From positions 2,493,985-2,557,984 of the forward strand of contig RPFO01000072.1 of NCBI GenBank assembly GCA_009746045.1: 64,000 nucleotides of DNA, read 5' to 3'. This document shows, piece by piece, positions 6,678-64,000 of this stretch; position 1 is the first letter of the stretch, and each line of letters opens with the position of its first letter. The stretch is from Mesostigma viride. Taxonomy: Eukaryota > Streptophyta > Mesostigmatophyceae > Mesostigmatales > Mesostigmataceae. The notes under the pieces were generated by a model that saw only the letters and a list, made by a program, of their open reading frames with translations, was not told the DNA's origin and made no database searches. Both the position numbers and the translations under genes were made by a program.

Positions 6678-8024
6678 CTAGTCTGAGGTGGCAGGAGGGG
6701 GCTGCCAGGGCTTGTGGTCAACGTGGATGACCGCCCCCCTCCAGTATACCGGCTTCCCCCTTGCGCTCTGCCGGAGCTGAAGGTAGGTCGGCCATAGCTC
6801 GCGTCGCCGCTGTTGCTGGGCCAGGGTCAAGTCGTCGTCTAGCGTGAAGCGAGTCTCCGAGAGCTTCTTGCGGCATTTAAGGAACGCCAGCTTGTCCGCC
6901 ATGTACTTAAAGGTGAGGAGCACGGGTGCCGGGCCAGCCTTCCCCCGCGCGCGGGGGAGGCGGACAGCCGACATGTCCAGCTCACCAGTGAGTAACATGG
7001 GGGCAAGAATGGCGCGCTTAAATGCCTCAAGAAGGCTCGTGGAGGTCTCACCTGCCTGCTGGTCGAAGTGCTTGACGATGACATTGTGGCTGCGCCGGGC
7101 GATGTCGGCTTCCTCGCGAAGGTCGAGGGCTTGTTGCTTGAGTTGTGCCGAGATGGTGGAGGTGGTGGAGGTGGTGTGTTGCTTAAGCAAGTCCGCCCAG
7201 GTGGAGGGAGCATCGCCGGCCGGGCCAGCAGAAGCCGGCTGGGCGGCGATGTCCTTCACCGCCTGGGCGGTGAGGCCGGCGGTGTCATGCAAGCTCTCAA
7301 GGGCGTTGGCGGTGGCTTGAAGGCGTTGGTCGAGGTCGAGGAGCTGGGCTTTGATGTCGGCAGTGGAGGCGGAAATGGCCGTGGAGGTGGAGGCGGCGGC
7401 GGTGGAAATGTGAGGAAGTTCAGCAGTCAGCGTGCCGCCGATTGCTGCTATGTCGGCAGCAAGGGGGGTCACGTGCTGCTGAAAGGCTTCCGTGAGGATG
7501 GAACGGAGGGTGGAGGCGGAGATGGATGGAGCCCAGATCTCGCCGTCAGAGCGCTGGAGAAGGGAGTTGAGGATGGCGTGCTGGAGCTGGGGGCGGGGGC
7601 AGCCAAGCATGGCACCGTGGGCTTGCCAGCGGCTGCCGTTGCTGCAGAGGAGGCGACCTTGGTCGTAGAGATGGATGCACAGGTCGTAAAGCGAGGCGTA
7701 GTCCCCGAAGAAGATGCAGTCCATAGCATCGTCCGGAGACATGTTGCTCCAGTCGTGATCATCGACCTTGAAAGGGTGGGGCCGAAAGCGCGGTTCCGAG
7801 GGGCGGGACCATCCTGTTTTGTCGGCTGGGCGGGTGCGTTTCGGGTCAGGCGATGCCGATGGCGAGGCATTAAGCCCGGGAGGTTGCTGGGTGACCACCA
7901 GTGCACGACGAGTGTCACCGCTGCCTGCCGGACCTGATGGCGAAGCTGCAGCCGCAGCTGCCGCATTTTCATGGGCGAGCGCATCCGCCAAACTGCGTTG
8001 CGTCAAAGGACGTTTGCTCGTCAT
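6678..8024 (-). CDS. ORF1 protein of non-LTR retrotransposon E1 (intact, 448 aa)
   Basis: Intact reading frame starting MTSKRPLTQRSLADAL and ending PPPATSD. Residues 1-90 are Ala/Ser/Pro-rich and low in complexity. Residues about 190-270 form an Ala/Leu/Asp-rich helical stretch likely to be a coiled coil (TADIKAQLLDLDQRL). The C-terminal third (from about residue 315) reads NVIVKHFD, then AVRLPRARGK, PVLLTFKYMADK, TLDDDLTLAQQQRR and KPVYWRGAVIHVD. This is the layout of L1-type ORF1 proteins, an RNA-binding module plus C-terminal domain, which in that family package the element RNA. No endonuclease or reverse transcriptase frame follows. The stop codon is joined directly to the 3' tail, with copy D inserted at the junction. 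Confidence 0.75.
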   Translation of the reverse strand: MTSKRPLTQRSLADALAHENAAAAAAASPSGPAGSGDTRRALVVTQQPPGLNASPSASPDPKRTRPADKTGWSRPSEPRFRPHPFKVDDHDWSNMSPDDAMDCIFFGDYASLYDLCIHLYDQGRLLCSNGSRWQAHGAMLGCPRPQLQHAILNSLLQRSDGEIWAPSISASTLRSILTEAFQQHVTPLAADIAAIGGTLTAELPHISTAAASTSTAISASTADIKAQLLDLDQRLQATANALESLHDTAGLTAQAVKDIAAQPASAGPAGDAPSTWADLLKQHTTSTTSTISAQLKQQALDLREEADIARRSHNVIVKHFDQQAGETSTSLLEAFKRAILAPMLLTGELDMSAVRLPRARGKAGPAPVLLTFKYMADKLAFLKCRKKLSETRFTLDDDLTLAQQQRRRELWPTYLQLRQSARGKPVYWRGAVIHVDHKPWQPPPATSD

Positions 8025-8165
8025 ATATAGCGTTTTAGATTCGGAAAATTATATCAGCATGTGCGTCTTAGAAAGACGAAGCGATAGTGATATTCACAGC
8101 TGAATTTGGGGCTCAAACGTGAAAGTTATGAGCTCCGTCGTCAGCCATGGCTACCTCGTGGCCAT
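8025..8165 (-). mobile_element. 5' UTR of E1 copy 1
   Basis: Near-identical to the reverse complement of 30,405-30,541, the sequence just upstream of the other ORF1. Homology stops at the CCACGAGGTAGCCATGG segment. Beyond it lies a piece related to the S1 SINE flank (CATCCGCAAAAGTTCTCCT). Confidence 0.5.
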
Positions 8166-9042: not shown

Positions 9043-21183
<12,141 letters not shown>

Positions 21184-29390: not shown

Positions 29391-29439
29391 CCTAAAAACG
29401 GCCTTTTTTGTTACATGGGGTCATATCTCCCACACATAT

Positions 29440-30213
29440 TCTGATCAGACACTCCGCAAAGGTGAAAACCTTTGCGTTCAGTGCCGGGCCGCGGAAAACG
29501 CGGAAAACGCGATCTGCAAATGAATCCGACCGGAATCGAACTGGGGACCTCTCGCACCAATTTTGCTGACTATAGGACGGACGTCTCCGGTTACCATGGC
29601 ATCGCCAACTTACACCTACAGTCATCCGCAAAAGTTCTCCTGTCCGGGGAGTGATGCAAGCCTTTCGGATTTGGTACTAGATAAATCACTCGAGATCTGT
29701 GTGTAGGAGTACTACACACGTGTCTGCACGCGAGACTTGTTCAGTCTCGCACCGTGAGACGGGCTGAACACGGCTGAATCCTTCTTTAGAAGGGGGCGTA
29801 GCCGGTACTATCGAAATCAGCCAAGCGTATATTCTGATCAGACACTCCGCAAAGGTGAAAACCTTTGCGTTCAGTGCCGGGCCGCGGAAAACGCGGAAAA
29901 CGCGATCTGCAAATGAATCCGACCGGAATCGAACTGGGGACCTCTCGCACCAATTTTGCTGACTATAGGACGGACGTCTCCGGTTACCATGGCATCGCCA
30001 ACTTACACCTACAGTCATCCGCAAAAGTTCTCCTGTCCGGGGAGTGATGCAAGCCTTTCGGATTTGGTACTAGATAAATCACTCGAGATCTGTGTGTAGG
30101 AGTACTACACACGTGTCTGCACGCGAGACTTGTTCAGTCTCGCACCGTGAGACGGGCTGAACACGGCTGAATCCTTCTTTAGAAGGGGGCGTAGCCGGTA
30201 CTATCGAAATCAG
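29440..30213 (-). mobile_element. Tandem dimer of SINE S1 with 11-bp target duplication
   Basis: Two nearly identical monomers with a period of 393 bp. The pair is bracketed by CCCACACATAT at 29429-29439 and 30214-30224, so it appears to have inserted as a dimer. On the minus strand each monomer has a tRNA-like box B (AGTTCGATTCC) and a weak box A-like segment upstream. Together with the diverged copy at 2862-3045 this suggests a tRNA-derived SINE, although no cloverleaf is intact. Confidence 0.6.
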
Positions 30214-30224
30214 CCCACACATAT

Positions 30225-30541
30225 AGTCAGATCGGGGTGCCTTTCTGGACTTAAGGTCCCCCTAGGACCCTGTTCACATCACATAAATTGGGGGGCCAAC
30301 TGACCTATTTTTAGCATCAAACCGTGACGTGGAAAAGTGCAAAAAATGATGTTTTCCAGGCATAAGGAGGCATAAGGATGGCTTCTGATGACGCCTCCAA
30401 ATTCCGGCCACGAGGTAGCCATGGCTGTCGGAGCTCATAACTTTCACGTTTGAGCACCGAATTTAGCCGTGAATATCACTATCGCTTCGTCTTTCTAAGA
30501 CGCACATGCTGATATAATTTTCCGAATCTAAAACGCAATAT
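30225..30541 (+). mobile_element. 5' UTR region of E1 copy 2
   Basis: The last 135 bp are shared with E1 copy 1. They contain a short hairpin (CGTCTTTCTAAGACG). The exact 5' end of the element is not resolved. Confidence 0.45.
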
Positions 30542-31890
30542 ATGGCGAACAAACGCGCCTCGACGCAACGCAGCCTGGCGGCTGCGCTCGGCAATGAAAA
30601 TACGTCTGCAGCTCAGGCTGCAGCTTCGCCTTCAGGTCCGGCAGGCGGCGATGACACTAGTCGTGCACTGGTGGTCGTCCAGCAACCCCCCGGGCTTAAC
30701 GCCTCGCCATCTGCATCGCCTGACCCCAAGCGCACCCGCCCAGCCGCCGACACAGGAGGGTCTTCACGCCCAGAACCGAGCTTTCGGCCCCGGCCTTTCA
30801 AGGTCGCAGATTACGACTGGGCCACCATTTCTCCGACCGATGCTATGCGCTGCATCTTCTTCGGGGATTACGCTTCGCTTTACGACCTGTGCCTCCATTT
30901 CCACTCCATCAATCGCCTCCTCTGCCCAGACGGCCGCCGCTGGGACAACATCTACGGGCTGTCCGGCTGCGTCCGCCCCCATCTCCAGCACGCCATCCTC
31001 AACTCCCTTCTCCAGCGCTCTGACGGCGAGATCTGGGCTCCACCCCTTTCCGTCCCCACCCTCCGCTCCATCCTCACGGAAGCCTTTCAGCAGCACGTGA
31101 CCCCCCTTGCTGCCGACATAGCAGCAATCGGCGGCACGCTGACTGCTGAACTTCCTCACATTTCCACCGCCGCCGCCTCCACCTCCACGGCCATTTCCGC
31201 CTCCACTGCCGACATCAAAGCCCAGCTCCTCGACCTCGACCAACGCCTTCAAGCCACCGCCAACGCCCTTGAGAGCTTGCATGACACCGCCGGCCTCACC
31301 GCCCAAGCGGTGAAGGACATCGCCGCCCAGCCGACGCCTGCTGGCCCGGCCGGCGATGCTCCCTCCACCTGGGCGGACTTGCTTAAGCAGCACACCACCT
31401 CCACCACCTCCACCATCTCGGCACAACTCAAGCAACAAGCCCTCGACCTTCGCGAGGACACCGACATCGCCCGGCGCAGCCACAATGTCATCGTCAAGCA
31501 CTTCGACCAGCCGGCAGGTGAGACCTCCACGAGCCTTCTTGAGGCATTTAAGCGCGACATTCTTGCCCCCATGCTACTCACTGGTGAGCTGGACATGTCG
31601 GCTGTCCGCCTCCCCCGCGCGCGGGGGAAGGCTGGCCCGGCACCCGTGCTCCTCACCTTTAAGTACATGGCGGACAAGCTGTCGTTCCTTAAATGCCGCA
31701 AGAAGCTCTCAAGGACTCGCTTCACGCTGGACGACGACTTGACCCTGGCCCAGCAACAGCGGCGACGCGAGCTATGGCCGACCTACCTTCAGCTCCGGCA
31801 CAGCGCAGGGGGGAAGCCGGTATACTGGAGGGGGCGGTCATCCACGTTGACCACAAGCCCTGGCAGCCCCCTCCTGCCACCCCAGACTAG
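30542..31890 (+). CDS. ORF1 protein of non-LTR retrotransposon E1, copy 2 (late frameshift)
   Basis: About 90% similar to the 448-aa protein at 6678-8024, starting MANKRASTQRSLAAALGNEN. It has the same Ala/Ser/Pro-rich N-terminus, helical centre and C-terminal NVIVKHFD, VRLPRARGK, PVLLTFKYMADK and TLDDDLTLAQQ motifs. A run of five Gs at 31830-31834 replaces six in the other copy and shifts the last 20 or so codons, so translation passes the old stop at 31888-31890 and ends at 31912. As in copy 1, the stop codon is followed directly by the 3' tail with no ORF2. Confidence 0.75.
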
Positions 31891-32337
31891 GGAATTCATA
31901 CCAGTAGTGTAGATTAGTCAGGCTTAGCCTAGCATGTGGCCCACGCGCATGTGCGCCCATAACGGCCCCCATGGATGTTGTCTACAGAATTTAGCCAAGC
32001 CCTGCCTATAAAGGGACCCCCATGGATGTTGCATTAAGAATTTCGCCATGCTATGCCATGCAGAGAGATGCTCTCTGTAGAGAAGCCATGTCCTAGCTCT
32101 TGTATAGCCATGATGATCTTCCCCACCTATGACAGGCTCCCCTTCGCTGGGTGCTGCCTGAAACTCTGGGTGGTGCAGGTGCCCTAGTGCACCTAGAGCA
32201 AGTGTTGTTTACATTCCCACCCTTGCAGGAAGTAGCTTAGAATGTATGATAGGCCATATGCCCCTTCTCTGGGCTATGTGCTACATATACTCCCAACGGA
32301 GTTATGTTACAATTCAATTCAATTCAATTCAATTCAA
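31891..32337 (+). mobile_element. 3' tail of E1 copy 2
   Basis: Starts GGAATTCATACCAGTAGTG and runs through the CCCCCATGGATG motifs to ATACTCCCAACGGAGTTATG and (AATTC)n. This is the reference for the orphan E1 tails. Confidence 0.7.
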
Positions 32338-52134: not shown

Positions 52135-55100
52135 ATGGAGTGCGTTTCTAATCTCTTGCGACTACTGTCTGGTTTCATGTGTTCCCTCGGTACCTTCCAC
52201 TTTCCAGCGCGTCCGGGGGAGACGCCGCCGATCGTCCCCAAGCTGATCGATTTTCTGGACGACACAATCAACCTGCTGGCGCCGCGGAGCAGTAGCCTCA
52301 ACGGTCAGGACCCGCTCCAGGGGAACTTTGCGCCCGTCACCGAAGAGCTCCACAAGCCCAACCTGCGCGTCATCTCGGGGGAACTTCCCGCGGACTTGAA
52401 TGGGTAAACCCAGAATACCCTAAACCCTAGAGTCCACAGGACGTCTAGAACTTGTTTCCTCGCCCAGCTGGCTGACAACTGCTTATGAAAACATGTCATT
52501 GACCGGTCGGTGTGCCATGTCAGCTGCACCATGGGGATGACGTCAGCTTGCTCCGCAAAGCAATGGTTATTTTCTGCCGCTCTGGGACTTGCTTGGCTGG
52601 CCAAAGGGTGAGCTGATTGCAACGAGCTGAAATGTGGCAAGGGGCAAAGCCAACTAGTAAACATTGCGACAACTGTTCATCTCTACTGTAGCTGTCATAG
52701 ATGTGCCACCCAGCCAAACCCGGCTTTCGCATTTCACCCCCACCAGTCCCACGTTGAGTTGTCCTCCTCATTCCCCCCCCCTGTGTTACCAATCATCCCC
52801 CCCCCCCCCCCCCCCCCAACCACCAGTTCAACCCACTTTCTCCATGGTTGATATTTCTGTCCCTCTCGTCAAGCTGTTGACGCCTGCACAGAGCCCGGCA
52901 AAGAGCTCCCTGCGTATGCCTGTCATGCGGCTATTTGAAATGCTGTCGCATGCTCCCATGTCCTGCAGGGCATTCATCCGAAATGGGCCCAACCCAAAGC
53001 TGAAACCGACCAACGGCTACCTCTGGTGCGTCATGCGTGTACACCAGCGCGCGGATGAGCATGTTTTCTGAGTAACGGAGCTTGTTTGACTGCGCTTTCT
53101 GGGCGACCGTCAAAGCCAAGCAGTCACATACTATGTAGCCCCGTATAGCGGTTATACAGCGTTATGCACTTGGATGTTGAGAATGTTTGTATGTTGGGAC
53201 TGGCGAAGGGTGGTGTGGGGGACGTTGAGCAGAATTAGGGATGCTTGCCAGAAAGGTATGCGAGAGCCCTACTACTCAGACGTCTGACTATGATGTAGTA
53301 TGTCACAACGTCCAACAGTAGCTGTGACGCGGTATGGCACAACGTCCAACAGTAGCCATGACGTAGTATGGCACAACGTCCAACAGTAGCCATGACGTAG
53401 TATGGCACAACGTCCAACAGTAGCCATGACGTAGCATGGCACAACGTCCAACAGTAGCCATGACGTAGTATGGCATAGTGTCCAACAGGAGCTGCTGTAC
53501 TACCCTGGAGGCATCGCTTTCATACCTATGCATGCCTTGGTAGTGCGCGGCCAGCTTCAGGATGGATGCCCTGCCTGACTTCTGTCCCACGATGAGCTCA
53601 GGGCTCAAGCTTGAACAGGCTTTGTCAGGTCTTTTGGCTTGTTCTTTGCGGCTCATCAGCCCAGGCCAAACGTTTCCAAACCTTGGTAGCATTTCATTCA
53701 TTAGTAAAACAGCTGCTTGGTGTGCTCATGTCGCATGGCATCCTTAGTGTTGCGTGCTTAGAAGCAAGTGGGCACTAGAAATGAGAGGCCTGCTTCGCTT
53801 CTCTCTGATGCCTTTGCCCTGTTTCGTTCACTCACTGCTATTCATGGAACTAGAGGGTTGGCCCACGGACTGCCTGCCTGCCCATACATGGCAGTCCAGG
53901 AACGCTAGCTGTTTGGATGGTGGCAATCGGCCATGGCAATGTGGAATGGCAATGGTGCACCGATGCACGCGCTTGTGAAACGGAGGGCTGGTTGCGTGTG
54001 GGCTATGGGCTACGGAGCCACTTGGTGTATGATTTGTCATCTGCCTGCGGTCCACAACTGGTCGGGAGCGGTTTGCAGACAAACCGCTTTGCCGGGCAGC
54101 CACACGAATGTCACTATAGCAATGCCAGCTACAACGATGCTGTTGCTGTAGGAGGCAGCCGCTGGTGGCATGGTTGAATGAAACTTTCTCCTCATGACTT
54201 CTAACCTGGCTACTGATTTTTCCTGCGTTTGTATTCGGTGGAACTGGTGGCACCCTTGTGCGATTCCCGGCATCCTGCGGTTGTGAACCCACCGGCTTGG
54301 TCCGTTGGGATGACCGCGATTACGGCCACATGGTGAATTCCCGGCGCTGCGCGGGAGGACCCTGGGCGACTCCGGACAATGGGCGCGTTCTGAACTCTGT
54401 AATGGGCCCATATCGCTGGGACTTGGCGCATGGCGCTTGACGTTTGGGTACCTCTGGCGACGTGCCGTGCTGGCGACTGGCGATGGCGCATGCTTGCGGT
54501 GCTACTTGCTTTTGCGGGGGGCGCAATTGCCGCTGGCGTTGGCCAGGATTGATGGGGACGGGTGCGTACTGGCACCCTTTTTCTGCAAATAAGCAGTTAC
54601 AAGCTAACTGATTGAGCCCAACGTGGGTGCACTGACAGCCACATGGTCACCGTGCGGTCCATAACCAACTTGGATCATGTCCTGCTGATCGTTGGCATTT
54701 GTGCACTCCCTTACTTGACAGAACCCCTCATTTTGGAATGCATGCTCTCACGCTCGAACATGTTGATTGTTCACACGGGATCAAACGCATAATTGAGTAC
54801 ATCATCCCTCAAGTTCCCGGGCTATGCTCTCTGCACTTAGTTATATCTGGCCATGCCCTTAGCTATATGTCGTCCTGTAAATGCTGTTCAAGTAAGTGAG
54901 CTGCTTTACTTCTTCTCCCGTTAACGTCTGTTCGGGCTAGAGGGCCAGGGGTGAGGTACGAGGTGGCCACCCTGAGCCCGCCGACACCAGCCCGTAGATG
55001 TAAATGCCCTCTCATCCTTAAGGTGTGACGAGTCGCTTGATTCACTCTTGTCTGCCGCATTTAATATGCTCGGTTGACTGCTAACGTGAAAGCCTCTAGT

Positions 55101-58100
55101 GGTGCCATATTTTTTTTCCCGTTCGCCAGCATGCTGCACGCTGTGCGGGTCAAGGGTGGGAAGGCCACATACAGCAACCACCTGATCCAAACCAACCGGG
55201 TGCTGGGGGAGTTGCAGGCGGGACGTGCATTCAACGTCAAGGTGAGGAACAGATGCTTTGCTCGTACTTGGTTGTGGGTGCCTGTGATTTCTTGAATTTA
55301 TAGCCTGTCTGCTCTCGATTTTCTAGGCGCGTTTTAGCGCGCGTAATTAAATGGTTGTGGGTAGAACTGGGGGGGGGGGGCGGGGGGGGGGGGGGGAAAG
55401 AAGGGGGGGAGGCCAGCAGGGAAGGGGATGGCCCCTTCATACAGGGTGATCACCCGTGTTGGTCTATCCTATACACCGGGTATGGCAGTATGGACCAGCG
55501 TGGATGATCAATGCGCAGGGTGGCTTACCCTGGTGCTTTTCCCACACCATGATGTCGTGCCGCTGCCGTACTTGCGGGTGTGCTGGTTTCTGGTTAATCA
55601 GTTCTGGTTAATGAATTGTTTTATAGTTAACCAATTTCTGGATCGTTTGTTTCTGTTGAGTGGATGTCTGGCACCCCCCTGGGGACAGGTGGGCGATATG
55701 TTCGGTGTTCCTGGCCTTCTGCGTGTGATGCTCGACAAGTGGCGGCGCCACATCGGCCTTGTGGACCCTGAGAGCAGCCAGAATGGTGTGTGCGGCAGCA
55801 GGCATGTAGACGTGCTTCTTGTGACAGAGTCGACCAATAGTGTTGATGTCAGGAGGTGTGCGGAGTGCTGACTGCTATCGTTGTTGTGAAATGCTGTAAT
55901 GTGGTCAGAGTTTGGGTTGCCTGTTTATGGAAAGTGCTTAGGCAAAGCCTGTCTGGGTGGGCATGACGCTTGCCGTAGCATGTGACTGGGAAGCTGTGAT
56001 TGTGGTTGTGCATGAGTGCTGGGGGGGGAGGGGGCGAGAAGGAAGGAGACCTAGGATTGCGTGGTGAGGGAATGGGTGCGCATGGGCATGTTTGCAAGGG
56101 AATGGGTGTGCTTGTTGGCATGTTTGCAAGCTATGGCCACCCTGTTCAGTGGATCGTGGTTACCAAACTGGAGTCGGTTGTGGTTACCCTGGCTGGCATA
56201 CCAATCATAATTAAAAAGTCATGACCGTTTGACTAAGGTCAGGTCTTGTTACCGTTTCCCCTCATCTCCCGTTTTTCCCTCTACCCTTTGGCCGCTCGCC
56301 CCTGTCTCCCCCCCCCCATCACCTTTCCACTCCAGGCAACATCTCCATCGTGTTTCATGCCGGCCAGCTAATGGCACTGAATGAGAACGACTTACCATGT
56401 GAGTACGAGATGTGAAAACAAAAATGACCTCACATGTGAGTTGGTACACAAGCGAAGCGGGGCAAGGCTAGGTTGGGCTCGGCTAGCGTAGGCTAGGCGG
56501 TGTTGGCCTAGGCTAGGCGGTCTTTGGATGATGCTTGGCGGCGTTGCGTGAAGCTAGGTGGTGTTGGGCTCTTGGGCTAGGCGACGCGCGTTGAGGCTGG
56601 ACAGGCCATGCTGGCTGTGTGATGAGGGCTAGGCTGGTTAGGCAGGCAAAACTCATCCACAACGGCCAGGCAGCTTACAGTCCCATGACGTGTTTCGGGC
56701 TTGCACGTAAGAGCAGGGTCAAACATGACTTTATTTAGCGTGACGAAATCTTCTTTGCCTGTCTCAGGGGAATGTTGTTTTGTCCATCGTCCGCTGTGCA
56801 AGACGCCAAGGAGGATTTATAAATGCATCGACTGATCTCATATTTTTCCGTCGACCCGGTGTGAGCCTACTCTTAGGACAGCTGCCGCTTGCAAGTCGTG
56901 GCTAATGCAACGCAACCATGGGCCTTTTTTTACCAATGGGAGCTAGGGGAGTAGTTGCTACAAAAGCAACATGCCTTGTAGCCCATCTAGGCCAATTTTC
57001 TGTCACTTTTGGTCATCACTCGTGCCTATTGTCCTTGCCCCCATCTTTGGCAGACACCATGAAACTTGTGGCACGATTGGTCATCACTCGCGCCTATTGT
57101 CCTTGCCCCCATCTTTGGCAGACACCATGAAACTTGTGGCACGATTGGTCATCACTCGTGCCTATTGTCCTTGGCCCCATCTTTGGCAGACACCATGAAA
57201 CTTGTGGCACTTTTGGTCATCACTCGTGCCTATTGTCCTTGCCCCCATCTTTGGCAGACACCATGAAACTTGTGGCACTTTTGGTCATCACTCGCGCCTA
57301 TTGTCCTTGCCCCCATCTTTGGCAGACACCATGAAACTTGTGGCACGATTGGTCATCACTCGTGCCTATTGTCCTTGCCCCCATCTTTGGCAGACACCAT
57401 GAAACTTGTGGCACGATTGGTCATCACTCGTGCCTATTGTCCTTGCCCCCATCTTTGGCAGACACCATGAAACTTGTGGCACGATTGGTCATCACTCGTG
57501 CCTATTGTCCTTGCCCCCATCTTTGGCAGACACCATGAAACTTGTGTCACGATTGGTCATCACTCGCGCCTATTGTCCTTGCCCCCATCTTTGGCAGACA
57601 CCATGACACTTGTGTCACGATTGGTCATCACTCGTGCCTATTGTCCTTGGCCCCATCTTTGGCAGACACCATGAAACTTGTGGCACTTTTGGTCATCACT
57701 CGTGCCTATTGTCCTTGCCCCCATCTTTGGCAGACACCATGACACTTGTGTCACGATGGGTCATCACTCGTGCCTATTGTCCTTGCCCCCATCTTTGGCA
57801 GACACCATGAAACTTGTGCCACTTTTGGTCATCACTCGTGCCTATTGTCCTTGCCCCCATCTTTGGCAGACACCATGAAACTTGTGGCACTTTTGGTCAT
57901 CACTCGCGCCTATTGTCCTTGCCCCCATCTTTGGCAGACACCATGAAACTTGTGGCACGATTGGTCATCACTCGTGCCTATTGTCCTTGCCCCCATCTTT
58001 GGCAGACACCATGAAACTTGTGGCACGATTGGTCATCACTCGTGCCTATTGTCCTTGCCCCCATCTTTGGCAGACACCATGAAACTTGTGGCACGATTGG

Positions 58101-61100
58101 TCATCACTCGTGCCTATTGTCCTTGCCCCCATCTTTGGCAGACACCATGAAACTTGTGCACGATGGGTCATCACTCGTGCCTATTGTCCTTGCCCCCATC
58201 TTTGGCAGACACCATGAAACTTGTGGCACGATTGGTCATCACTCGTGCCTATTGTCCTTGCCCCCATCTTTGGCAGACACCATGAAACTTGTGTCACGAT
58301 TGGTCATCACTCGTGCCTATTGTCCTTGCCCCCATCTTTGGCAGACACCATGAAACTTGTGGCACGATTGGTCATCACTCGTGCCTATTGTCCTTGCCCC
58401 CATCTTTGGCAGACACCATGAAACTTGTGGCACTTTTGGTCATCACTCGTGCCTATTGTCCTTGCCCCCATCTTTGGCAGACACCATGAAACTTGTGGCA
58501 CGATTGGTCATCACTCGTGCCTATTGTCCTTGCCCCCATCTTTGGCAGACACCATGAAACTTGTGGCACTTTTGGTCATCACTCGTGCCTATTGTCCTTG
58601 CCCCCATCTTTGGCAGACACCATGAAACTTGTGGCACTTTTGGTCATCACTCGCGCCTATTGTCCTTGCCCCCATCTTTGGCAGACACCATGAAACTTGT
58701 GGCACGATTGGTCATCACTCGTGCCTATTGTCCTTGCCCCCATCTTTGGCAGACACCATGAAACTTGTGGCACTTTTGGTCATCACTCGTGCCTATTGTC
58801 CTTGCCCCCATCTTTGGCAGACACCATGAAACTTGTGTCACGATTGGTCATCACTCGTGCCTATTGTCCTTGCCCCCATCTTTGGCAGACACCATGAAAC
58901 TTGTGGCACGATTGGTCATCACTCGTGCCTATTGTCCTTGCCCCCATCTTTGGCAGACACCATGAAACTTGTGGCACGATGGTCATCACTCGTGCCTATT
59001 GTCCTTGCCCCCATCTTTGGCAGACACCATGAAACTTGTGGCACGATTGGTCATCACTCGTGCCTATTGTCCTTGCCCCCATCTTTGGCAGACACCATGA
59101 AACTTGTGGCACGATTGGTCATCACTCGTGCCTATTGTCCTTGCCCCATCTTTGGCAGACACCATGAAACTTGTGGCACGATTGGTCATCACTCGTGCCT
59201 ATTGTCCTTGCCCCCATCTTTGGCAGACACCATGAAACTTGTGGCACTTTTGGTCATCACTCGTGCCTATTGTCCTTGCCCCCATCTTTGGCAGACACCA
59301 TGAAACTTGTGGCACGATTGGTCATCACTCGTGCCTATTGTCCTTGCCCCCATCTTTGGCAGACACCATGAAACTTGTGGCACGATTGGTCATCACTCGT
59401 GCCTATTGTCCTTGCCCCCATCTTTGGCAGACACCATGAAACTTGTGGCACGATTGGTCATCACTCGTGCCTATTGTCCTTGCCCCCATCTTTGGCAGAC
59501 ACCATGAAACTTGTGGCACGATTGGTCATCACTCGTGCCTATTGTCCTTGCCCCCATCTTTGGCAGACACCATGAAACTTGTGGCACGATTGGTCATCAC
59601 TCGTGCCTATTGTCCTTGCCCCCATCTTTGGCAGACACCATGAAACTTGTGGCACTTTTGGTCATCACTCGTGCCTATTGTCCTTGCCCCCATCTTTGGC
59701 AGACACCATGAAACTTGTGTCACGATTGGTCATCACTCGTGCCTATTGTCCTTGCCCCCATCTTTGGCAGACACCATGAAACTTGTGGCACGATTGGTCA
59801 TCACTCGTGCCTATTGTCCTTGCCCCCATCTTTGGCAGACACCATGAAACTTGTGGCACGATTGGTCATCACTCGTGCCTATTGTCCTTGCCCCCATCTT
59901 TGGCAGACACCATGAAACTTGTGGCACGATTGGTCATCACTCGTGCCTATTGTCCTTGCCCCCATCTTTGGCAGACACCATGAAACTTGTGGCACGATTG
60001 GTCATCACTCGTGCCTATTGTCCTTGCCCCCATCTTTGGCAGACACCATGAAACTTGTGGCACGATTGGTCATCACTCGTGCCTATTGTCCTTGCCCCCA
60101 TCTTTGGCAGACACCATGAAACTTGTGGCACGATTGGTCATCACTCGTGCCTATTGTCCTTGCCCCCATCTTTGGCAGACACCATGAAACTTGTGGCACG
60201 ATTGGTCATCACTCGTGCCTATTGTCCTTGCCCCCATCTTTGGCAGACACCATGAAACTTGTGGCACGATTGGTCATCACTCGTGCCTATTGTCCTTGCC
60301 CCCATCTTTGGCAGACACCATGAAACTTGTGGCACGATTGGTCATCACTCGTGCCTATTGTCCTTGCCCCCATCTTTGGCAGACACCATGAAACTTGTGG
60401 CACTTTTGGTCATCACTCGTGCCTATTGTCCTTGCCCCCATCTTTGGCAGACACCATGAAACTTGTGGCACGATTGGTCATCACTCGTGCCTATTGTCCT
60501 TGCCCCCATCTTTGGCAGACACCATGAAACTTGTGGCACGATTGGTCATCACTCGTGCCTATTGTCCTTGCCCCCATCTTTGGCAGACACCATGAAACTT
60601 GTGTCACGATTGGTCATCACTCGTGCCTATTGTCCTTGCCCCCATCTTTGGCAGACACCATGAAACTTGTGTCACGATTGGTCATCACTCGTGCCTATTG
60701 TCCTTGCCCCCATCTTTGGCAGACACCATGAAACTTGTGGCACGATTGGTCATCACTCGTGCCTATTGTCCTTGCCCCCATCTTTGGCAGACACCATGAA
60801 ACTTGTGGCACGATTGGTCATCACTCGTGCCTATTGTCCTTGCCCCCATCTTTGGCAGACACCATGAAACTTGTGGCACGATTGGTCATCACTCGTGCCT
60901 ATTGTCCTTGCCCCCATCTTTGGCAGACACCATGAAACTTGTGGCACGATTGGTCATCACTCGTGCCTATTGTCCTTGCCCCCATCTTTGGCAGACACCA
61001 TGAAACTTGTGGCACGATTGGTCATCACTCGTGCCTATTGTCCTTGCCCCCATCTTTGGCAGACACCATGAAACTTGTGGCACGATTGGTCATCACTCGT

Positions 61101-64000
61101 GCCTATTGTCCTTGCCCCCATCTTTGGCAGACACCATGAAACTTGTGGCACGATTGGTCATCACTCGTGCCTATTGTCCTTGCCCCCATCTTTGGCAGAC
61201 ACCATGAAACTTGTGTCACGATTGGTCATCACTCGTGCCTATTGTCCTTGCCCCCATCTTTGGCAGACACCATGAAACTTGTGGCACGATTGGTCATCAC
61301 TCGTGCCTATTGTCCTTGCCCCCATCTTTGGCAGACACCATGAAACTTGTGGCACGATTGGTCATCACTCGTGCCTATTGTCCTTGCCCCCATCTTTGGC
61401 AGACACCATGAAACTTGTGGCACGATGGTCATCACTCGTGCCTATTGTCCTTGCCCCCATCTTTGGCAGACACCATGAAACTTGTGGCACGATTGGTCAT
61501 CACTCGTGCCTATTGTCCTTGCCCCCATCTTTGGCAGACATCATCGAGCTGCACAACAACGGTTCCCTGCGCACTGTCGGGCTGGAGAGGTTCCAGGGCC
61601 GGCTCACGCATAGCTTCACCGCGCATCCAAAGATAGACCCGCAGACAGGTGCCCACACCAATGCCCGTTAATACGTATCGCATTTTTATACCTGTTGCTG
61701 GAGTGGAAGAATCTTGTTGCATTCAAAATACGACCCTCAGACAGGTACCTGTTACTGTACTGGTCACTATTTGTAAGTGTACATGTTACAGTTGTGGAAG
61801 AACCCTGTCAGACCCTTGGATGATATCTGTCACCGCTGGGTTATTCCGGCGTATGCCCCATGTTGGTGGTCCCATGAGCACTTACCGCCTACTCAATAGA
61901 GACACGCTAGAAGCTGCATAATCTATTATTAGCCCTTGCTGGATGCGGAGCATTGCAAGACAAGCCATACCTGTACCTGTCCAATTTCTAGATTCGCTCA
62001 TCCAGCCACTGATGTTCCCAGGCGGCGTGGCAATTAGTAACCGTGATCAACCATGGTCAACCGTGATGAACCATGGTCAGCCATAATGAAACATCATGAA
62101 AAGTTCATCATCAATCAAATTTGAGCCATCCTTCAATCCCAACGGTGCGTCCTTCGTCCGAATTGTTGCCCCTCCGGGTCTTCCTGCCCACATGGATCTC
62201 CTTTCCCTTCTCCCAGGCGACATGGCTTCATCAGCGCTTCGAATAAACCATGATTTCACCCCGGCGATCTTACCCGTGCCTGCCCGTGCCTGCCCATGCC
62301 TGCCCATGCCTGCCCATGCCTGCCCATGCCTGCCCATGCCTGCCCATGCCTGCCCCTGCCTGCCCCTGCCTGCCCGTGCCTGCCCCTGCCTGCCCATGCC
62401 TGCCCATGCCTGCCCATGCCTGCCCATGCCTGCCCATGCCTGCCCCTGCCTGCCCCTGCCTGCCCCTGCCTGCCCCTGCCTGCCCGTGCCTGCCCATGCC
62501 TGCCCATGCCTGCCCATGCCTGCCCATGCCTGCCCATGCCTGCCCATGCCTGCCCATGCCTGCCCATGCCTGCCCATGCCTGCCCATGCCTGCCCATGCC
62601 TGCCCATGCCTGCCCATGCCTGCCCATGCCTGCCCATGCCTGCCCATGCCTGCCCATGCCTGCCCATGCCTGCCCATGCCTGCCCATGCCTGCCCGCGGT
62701 GCCCCATCGTCCCACTTTCTTATCCCCCCATTTCCAAGCAAGATGCTTATCATCAACACCGCCCTATCAACCCCTGTTTCGCCACTTCCTACTTCTTACT
62801 TCCTACTTCCTACTTCCTATTTCCTACTTCCTACTTCCTACTTCCTACTTCCTACTTCCTACTTCCTACTTCCTACTTCCTACTTCCTACTTCCTACTTC
62901 CTACTTCCTACTTCCTACTTCCTACTTCCTACTTCCTACTTCCTACTTCCTACTTCCTACTTCCTACTTCCTGCAGATATGTTCGTTTTCCGAGATGTTT
63001 GTTACACCTCATTCTATCATCCCCAGGTGTGGTCAACCAAGTTCGTACGCCCACGCGGAAGCCCTTTTCGTGATCCAAACTACAACTTAAACCATCCTGT
63101 GATCCCCTTTTGGGCCCCCGTCCTATCCCCCTGCTACACCCCCAGGCGAGATGTTCATCATCGGCTACGACATGGAGAAGGCACCGTACCTCCACTACAG
63201 CGTGATCAACGCGGACGGCCGCCTGCGGCACTCGGTGCCCATCACCCTGCCGCGGCCCGTGGTCATGCATGACTTTGGCATCACAGAGAGATATGCGCTC
63301 TTCCTCGATCTGCCCTTCACGTTCTCGCTCGCGGTGCGTGGATGCAAATATCTCATTGTCTCCTTGATGATAATTTAGAGGGTGATGGTAAAGTCGATTG
63401 GGTTGGGATACGTGAGGGGGTGTTGATGGCACGTCCTCGCTCGCGGTGTGTGGATAAAAAAATATTGATGCCTCCTTGGTATTCGTAGGGGTGTGGTGCT
63501 GAAATCAAGGTTGGGAACATAGGGGGGATTTTGATGGCATGTTCGCGCTCTCGGTGCGTGGACTTAGTATGTACATAGTGTGTTACGAAATTGTTTGCAC
63601 ATGCAAAATTGAGGGATTTAATAGCACTTTTCGGGCAGTTTGATATACGAAGCGTGAGCAGCCTTACAAGAGTAATTCCTAGTATAACTTATCAATCTCT
63701 ATCTCAACGAAAGCAATGCCAGGACTCTGACAAAATATCATGGACCCTACCTGCGACCAACCTGACGCCCAGTTGATGGATTAAACAAAAGAAATTTCTT
63801 GATGCTTGTTTGGCTTTCTCCTAGTTTGCCTGCACAGGACATAGAACACATGCTTACCTGCCCATCCAGAGGTGCAGGGAACCCTATTTTGCACGAGATC
63901 ATTTGTCTCCGTTCACATGTCCTTTTATCCTGCCTTTGCACTAACCTTGCAGGGCATGGTCGGCCCGCTGCCGTTCCAATAGCCCACGTCACCTTGTCCC
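52135..64000 (+). CDS. Second carotenoid cleavage dioxygenase, CCD1-like paralogue (5' part, continues beyond window)
   Basis: Exons 52135(or 52208)-52403, 52969-53025, 54547-54561, 55130-55241, 55689-55785, 56336-56398, 61538-61648 and 63146-63333, with matching phases. The product shows LIDFLDDTINLL, GNFAPVTEEL, LPADLNGAFIRNGPNP, W-IDGDG-MLHAVRVKGGK, FHAGQLMALNENDLP, YIIELHNNG, RLTHSFTAHPKIDPQTGEMF and PVVMHDFGITERYALFLDLP. The first two iron-binding histidines are present (TAHPK and VMHDF); the other two would lie beyond the window. The usual Phe of FDGDG is Ile, and the family TANTA segment is GNISI, so substrate or activity may differ. The start is uncertain: ATG at 52135 or an upstream exon spliced to the acceptor at 52207. 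Confidence 0.82.
53290..53490. repeat. 34-bp minisatellite in intron 2 of the second CCD gene
   Basis: About six copies of a unit containing TATGGCACAACGTCCAACAG then TAGCCATGACGTAG. Confidence 0.85.
54547..54561 (+). other. 15-nt microexon of the second CCD gene
   Basis: GATTGATGGGGACGG, between the acceptor GGCCAG and the donor GTGCGT. It completes the Trp codon split by exon 2 and joins in phase to the CATGCTGCAC of exon 4, giving W-IDGDG-ML. Same length and phase as the microexon of the paralogue. Confidence 0.8.
57000..61537 (+). repeat. About 67 copies of a 68-bp unit carrying a 3' splice site, in intron 6 of the second CCD gene
   Basis: Unit: GGTCATCACTCGTGCCTATT, GTCCTTGCCCCCATCTTTGG, CAGACACCATGAAACTTGTG, then GCACGATT. 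The stretch from GGTCATCACT to TTTGGCAG is identical to the sequence just before exon 7 (acceptor at 61535-61537), and the following ACACCAT resembles the exon start ACATCAT. Most units are exactly 68 bp; a few are 1-8 bp shorter. Variants (CGCGCC, CACTTTT, GTGTCAC) recur in patterns in the 5' half, whereas about 59.3-61.1 kb is nearly uniform. The many overlapping 66-codon frames are artefacts. Confidence 0.95.
62266..62695. repeat. 10-bp minisatellite TGCCCATGCC, about 43 copies
   Basis: Lies in intron 7 of the second CCD gene, with CCC-TGCC and CCG-TGCC variants. The PAHACPCLPM frames are artefacts. Confidence 0.95.
62784..62972. repeat. 7-bp CTTCCTA repeat, about 27 copies
   Basis: Pyrimidine-rich array in intron 7 of the second CCD gene, ending in CTTCCTGCAG, itself an acceptor-like sequence. 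Confidence 0.9.
63318..63561 (+). repeat. Three copies of the exon-8 donor junction, second CCD gene
   Basis: The true junction, ACGTTCTCGCTCGCG then GTGCGTGG, is followed by related blocks at 63,430-63,453 (CACGTCCTCGCTCGCGGTGT) and 63,538-63,561 (GTTCGCGCTCTCGGTGCGTG), spaced about 110 bp. Confidence 0.7.

Follow-up and report, generated by a model that had tools for sequence, protein, structure and literature searches.

A tandem array of 67 near-identical 3' splice sites in intron 6 of a Mesostigma viride CCD gene

The CCD gene and its gene models

The window, i.e., the entire 64,000-nucleotide stretch analyzed here (2493985-2557984 of contig C113), carries two paralogous carotenoid cleavage dioxygenase (CCD) genes, gene p, whose exons were placed at 10005..21183 of the minus strand, and gene m on the plus strand (52208..63333 for exons 1 to 8; exons 9 to 14 lie beyond the window). 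Gene m was delineated by homology and spliced translation, and joining its 14 exons yielded an intact protein of 530 aa, counted from the first exon found. Residues 31 to 524 of the 530 were aligned with solved carotenoid 9,10-dioxygenases (E value of 2e-129 for 9m3e), and a 288-residue part matched the RPE65 family PF03055 at 225.2 bits, with a cut-off of 27. A candidate exon 9 at 63953 was rejected, as it contains a stop codon and the gene model P0001 (Mesvir1/25547) puts the next exon start at 64072.

Exon 6 (56336..56398, plus strand, the same in P0001) ends in phase 1 at CCAT/GTGAGT and is followed by intron 6 (56399..61537, plus strand), which at 5139 nt is the longest of 37 introns in four CCD genes (median of 1120 nt). 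Exon 7 (61538..61648, plus strand), placed by homology, is 111 nt long and of phase 1-1, ends at the donor CAG/GTGCCC, and contributes to the dioxygenase alignment a matching block with the motif FTAHPK, the histidine of which we take to be an iron ligand. Joining of the phase 1 end of exon 6 to exon 7 restores a Tyr at the junction; the position of intron 6 is shared by gene p, whose model P0121 carries the same Tyr.

Because exon 7 is of phase 1-1, it can be skipped in frame by joining exon 6 to exon 8 at 63146, and the initial annotation had named disuse of exon 7 as a finding that would count against it. The available models are divided on this point. P0001, the only other model found for gene m, is identical to the translation of exons 4 to 6 (90/90 residues) and of exons 8 to 14 (313/313) and is devoid of exons 1 to 3 and of exon 7 (DLP-C-EMF, in frame), and thereby of the FTAHPK histidine, whereas the two paralogue models, P0121 for gene p and P0122, which is closest to gene r, retain theirs; as read by eye, both go on from the exon-proximal donors of exons 7, 9, 10, and 11. 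That exon 7 is missing from P0001 may be due to a failure to assemble the array and not to the biology of the gene; judging from their '-RA' labels, the Mesvir1 models probably stem from the MAKER-annotated Illumina assembly of strain CCAC 1140 described in the excerpted genome report (PMC7027972). Separately, exon 12 is entered in P0122 (Mesvir1/1011) from further upstream, in a frame differing from that conserved in the paralogues, probably due to a prediction error.

The array in intron 6 and the reading of its decoys

TRF reported a 68-bp period on the plus strand at 57009..61544 (66.8 copies, 98% matches, score of 8722), which extends across the start of exon 7 at 61538. Within it we counted 67 GGCAG acceptors, i.e., 66 decoys and the genuine site, with first exon-like bases running from 57054 to 61538, in agreement with the 4.5-kb array of about 67 acceptors initially annotated. 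The step from acceptor to acceptor was 68 bp in 62 of 66 cases and 67 bp in the remaining 4. With the genuine site counted, 55/67 copies were identical to the genuine acceptor over positions -45 to -1 and 64/67 over -20 to +3, confirming that the units repeat the polypyrimidine tract and acceptor of exon 7. The 45 intronic bases of the genuine acceptor itself (61493..61537) are identical to the unit consensus; the last unit is indeed the genuine acceptor, as had been claimed, and it opens exon 7 within an intact CCD gene. In the consensus, a pyrimidine-rich stretch precedes a single AG, the acceptor reads CAG/ACACC, and two TCA(Y) motifs, found by reading 35 to 38 nt upstream of the AG, are candidate branch points. 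The 66 units fell into 13 sequence types, the consensus accounting for 39 of them, and the variant units were clustered early, with 20 of 27 among the first 33. When the array together with exon 7 was used as a query against the 439.9-Mb assembly of 2243 contigs, at least 11 matches were obtained, and the 11 listed all lay at the array's own locus on the contig of the window (C113). The array is not attributable to chance.

Both ends of the array bear on its origin. The left flank, TGTCACTT at 57001..57008 (plus strand), is a leftward continuation of the intronic part of the unit; the sequence of this flank, TGTCACTTTTGG, is that of two minority variants, G18T (found in 9 units, 5 within the first 33) and G22T/A23T (12 units, 10 within the first 33), with the TT form retained in the flank and the last intronic half-unit being of the consensus form. 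Since the flank matches minority variants, 57001..57008 probably marks the founding left end. At the other end, the exon-like part of the unit matched exon 7 at 6/7 and 9/15 of the first bases (P about 0.004 for the latter), so that the unit does extend a short way into the exon, as proposed, but with a weak match. These features point to an old tandem duplication across the intron 6/exon 7 boundary, which would have taken in about 53 nt of the intron end and about 15 nt of the exon start; unequal exchange or slippage may then have expanded and homogenized the repeat to 67 acceptor modules, each with one AG behind a pyrimidine-rich stretch and no donor. Being equal to the consensus on its intronic side, the genuine acceptor was apparently homogenized there along with the array, unlike the exon, and exon 7 would have been held by selection.

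We then determined the consequences of decoy use by joining each decoy to exon 6 and translating as far as the exon 7 donor. Stop codons were reached after 25 codons with 61 of the 66 decoys, including the first (57054), and after 55, 70, 70, and 115 codons with four others. The remaining one, decoy 65 (first exon-like base at 61403), met no stop and joined exon 7 in frame, adding 135 nt, or 45 codons, before it. Thus the prediction that decoy use would truncate the protein stands for 65/66 decoys and fails for decoy 65. The in-frame status of this decoy depends on a 67-bp unit with a 1-bp deletion (one T gone), also found in unit 29, and a long-read deletion error could account for it.

Other readings of the units were considered and rejected. 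The array is not protein-coding, as 68 is not a multiple of 3 and a 66-aa ORF reappears with each unit; the longest listed array ORF, of 156 aa, spans units with indels. The hallmark of recursive splicing is an acceptor placed immediately before a donor, i.e., AG/GT. Recursive (ratchet) or cassette splicing within the units was set aside, given CAG/ACACC and the lack of a donor: the best donor-like site in the array unit scored 0.85, below the weakest real donor (2.1), and array units should therefore not form exons of their own. Among the four CCD genes, the acceptor of exon 7 ranked 17th of 40, and its donor was among the weakest, ranking 44th of 45.

Boundary-spanning duplications in four CCD genes

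To place the array in context, we surveyed 85 splice junctions, on a single allele and in a single gene family, from four paralogous CCD genes, m and p (C113), q (C1469), and r (C1801). A junction copy was called when a local copy spanning the junction scored at least 14 at +1/-2 within 1.5 kb. Such copies were found at 12/45 donors and at 1/40 acceptors, the latter being the 68-bp array (Fisher test, 0.002, for genes that are paralogous and some copies of which are probably shared). The 12 donors do not represent 12 independent events; by exon number, donors were affected at five positions (exons 7 to 11) and acceptors at one (exon 7). The counts leave out, in gene q, the two junctions of exon 4; in each of p, q, and r, exon 3, the acceptor of exon 5, and the final exon; and, in p, the small exon between exons 4 and 5 that is seen in P0121. 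Further CCD genes (two on C1757, one each on C1942 and C667) were too diverged for their boundaries to be placed and were likewise excluded.

Pooled random positions across two gene spans, in which exons are mixed with repeat-rich introns, scored as high as the junctions or higher, and exon and intron controls were therefore separated. None of 1044 exon-interior positions had a junction-type copy (0/237 in the gene q part), and a local copy was found for 664/2723 intron positions outside the array, with control positions sampled each 3 or 15 bases and not mutually independent. Because the introns are this full of local duplication, the copied donors resemble intron DNA at large and are not in excess of it. 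The rarity of copied acceptors, 1/40, suggests that acceptor copies are usually harmful.

Of the copied donors, 10/12 score within about 2.2 units of the real donor; the copies of p exon 9 and p exon 11 have lost the GT. In gene m, the junction at the exon 8 donor has a copy at 63430..63455 (plus strand), 112 bp downstream of the real junction, and the donor end of exon 7 is partly copied at 61719..61749 (plus strand; 77% over 31 bases, 96 bp deeper into intron 7), with a score under the survey threshold. The exon 7 donor end of gene p (minus strand, real end at 15707-15736) is followed downstream by three further intronic copies, at 15239-15268, 15107-15136, and 14999-15028, with start-to-start distances of 108, 132, and 468 bp and the GT retained in 2/3. 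Small donor arrays were found at two sites: at exon 10 of gene m, beyond the window, a 33-bp unit is present in about 3 copies, and at exon 10 of gene q a 45-bp unit is present in 4.3 copies. At the latter position the close paralogue r carries a single copy and part of another, a probable copy-number change of a splice-site repeat between q and r. Gene p also has an array of its own in intron 6 (16093-16594, minus strand; 31 bp by 16 copies), which does not overlap a junction; on the coding strand, a pyrimidine run is seen in its units and a CAG in most of them, and by eye they are unlike the 68-bp unit.

Some donor copies seem to be shared among the paralogues. A single base change is common to the copies of the exon 9 donor in p, q, and r, and introns 7 and 11 of p and r were alignable only near their starts and at repeats, donor copies included; no alignment of intron 9 of p with that of q or r was obtained at 1e-3. 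From these comparisons, some donor copies may predate the gene split, with gene conversion as the alternative. The exon-end copies of p and r are among the few intronic stretches alignable in introns 7 and 11, which could reflect conserved function or repeated gene conversion.

Splice-site choice in the array and related systems

The array is best filed as a "mirage," a rarely described but already named class of minisatellite-like tandem duplications of an exon-intron boundary (PMC3087553). In the excerpts of that study considered here, mirages are described for the amphioxus genes Adh3, with units of 10 to 72 bp, and the globins BflGb6 and BflGb9; in BflGb6, the 3' intron end and the 5' part of the exon are duplicated, in 6 and 3 repeat units of 150 to 160 bp. 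Many units, not all, carry the splice signals of the boundary, and units evolve in concert within a cluster, those at the boundary excepted (PMC3087553). The array shares with these mirages a tandem repeat lying across an exon-intron boundary; its 68-bp unit is inside their range as excerpted, and both boundary types are affected in amphioxus, as in the Mesostigma CCD genes. Unlike BflGb6, as described there, it comprises 67 acceptor copies with nearly all modules identical, and unlike the amphioxus mirages it resides in a streptophyte green alga whose CCD genes show copied donors much more often than copied acceptors. It is an extreme case of the class. Our open-access literature searches returned no mirage report from a green alga.

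NAGNAG acceptors lie a few bases apart and share one branch point, whereas the array spaces complete acceptor modules at 68-bp intervals. The two are alike in offering rival acceptors for one exon, as far as the excerpted account of close tandem acceptors goes (PMC1449888). Internal tandem repeats of human segmental duplications also lie across boundaries and change splicing (PMC2812944, in part); those repeats reportedly form novel introns or variable exons, whereas the intron here has only grown, as far as can be read from the DNA.

We favor, with a probability of about 0.6, the reading that the array is a mirage-type minisatellite in which the last acceptor prevails through exon definition, while some splicing leaks to decoys or skips exon 7. 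The last acceptor would dominate as the one acceptor paired, across a short exon of 111 nt, with a donor. Because the exon 7 donor is weak and the decoys are equally strong, leakage is expected: some transcripts would skip exon 7 in frame or take a decoy, the first or one of the last few, giving dead transcripts and possibly one in-frame isoform. The last acceptor is favored if sites pair across the exon first, and the first acceptor if they pair across the intron first or in order of transcription. In support of the last acceptor, amphioxus mirages reportedly leave regular splicing undisturbed, by the excerpted account (PMC3087553), and in human the bias toward the upstream of two acceptors is significantly reduced under exon definition (PMC9225289, in part). 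Against its dominance, the same excerpts report that the upstream site is preferred overall when human acceptors are at least 20 nt apart (PMC9225289); use of the first decoy would give an intron of 655 nt, more typical than 5139 nt, P0001 is devoid of exon 7, and the scarcity of copied acceptors and the density of local duplication in the introns weigh on the same side.

Expression tuning by the array is possible, although unproven. It would take the form of dose control, i.e., acceptor competition and exon 7 skipping setting the share of functional CCD mRNA, with array length varying expression between strains. The model for this is the human ABCA7 intron 18 VNTR, whose 25-bp unit starts with a donor and whose length, in the excerpted report, is tied to lower expression and more in-frame skipping of exon 19 (PMC5954066). 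Like the array, this VNTR is intronic, with a splice site in its unit and a neighboring exon skippable in frame; it is a donor-side parallel with a measured length effect, whereas the array is acceptor-bearing and known from the sequence of one allele. The rank of the exon 7 donor, the in-frame phase of exon 7, and its omission from P0001 would all fit dose control, but copies were found at 0/26 acceptors tested in p, q, and r, so that no conserved regulatory role is visible, and we regard this explanation as unlikely. Still less probable is a loss of gene function in progress, with most splicing using decoys or skipping the exon. Sixty-six decoys are transcribed ahead of the real site, nearly all of them truncating if used, and P0001 lacks the conserved FTAHPK histidine; against decay, 14/14 found exons are intact and P0001 is identical and open over the exons that it covers.

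An assembly or annotation artefact, with the repeat collapsed or inflated, is very improbable. The 1-bp deletion that the in-frame decoy needs is typical of long reads, the published assembly of strain NIES-296 was built from PacBio reads polished with Pilon (PMC6947507, as excerpted), and the copy number may be inexact; the unit differences are nonetheless patterned into 13 types, and 4.5 kb is below the published read N50 of 11.2 kb (PMC6947507, as excerpted). An unrelated satellite ending at exon 7 by chance is hardly credible, even with tandem arrays as common as they are (20 TRF rows with a period of at least 7 in the gene m span), given that the last unit is the exon 7 acceptor in phase, that the unit continues into exon-like sequence, and that the genome matches listed fall at one locus.

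Beyond the favored last-acceptor reading, we tentatively propose, at somewhat less than even odds, that Mesostigma is a second independent lineage that routinely grows introns by boundary-spanning duplications, in which duplicated donors are tolerated and duplicated acceptors purged. The donors would be tolerated because the real donor is exon-proximal and transcribed first, and the acceptors purged because decoys are transcribed first. The 66-decoy array would then be a tolerated exception, needing either an unusually decisive exon-definition signal in exon 7 or decoys acting as dose control.

The choice of the spliceosome between identical sites has been studied with few competing copies. 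Here, a single natural pre-mRNA from an early-branching streptophyte would present 67 near-identical, evenly spaced acceptors, and junction counts by copy would report on donor proximity, across-exon proximity, and transcription order in one experiment. The recurrence of boundary duplications in the sister genes suggests a mutational route for intron growth, and the asymmetry between donors and acceptors is testable genome-wide.

Elsewhere in the window, a tandem duplication of 393 bp is present at 29436-30215 (2.0 copies, 100% matches). Related long ORFs lie at 6681-8048 (minus strand), at 30518-31909 (plus strand), and, beyond the window, at 75323-76129 (minus strand, extended coordinates); they begin with FSESKT.YM or FSDAITQYT and probably derive from a repeated mobile element.
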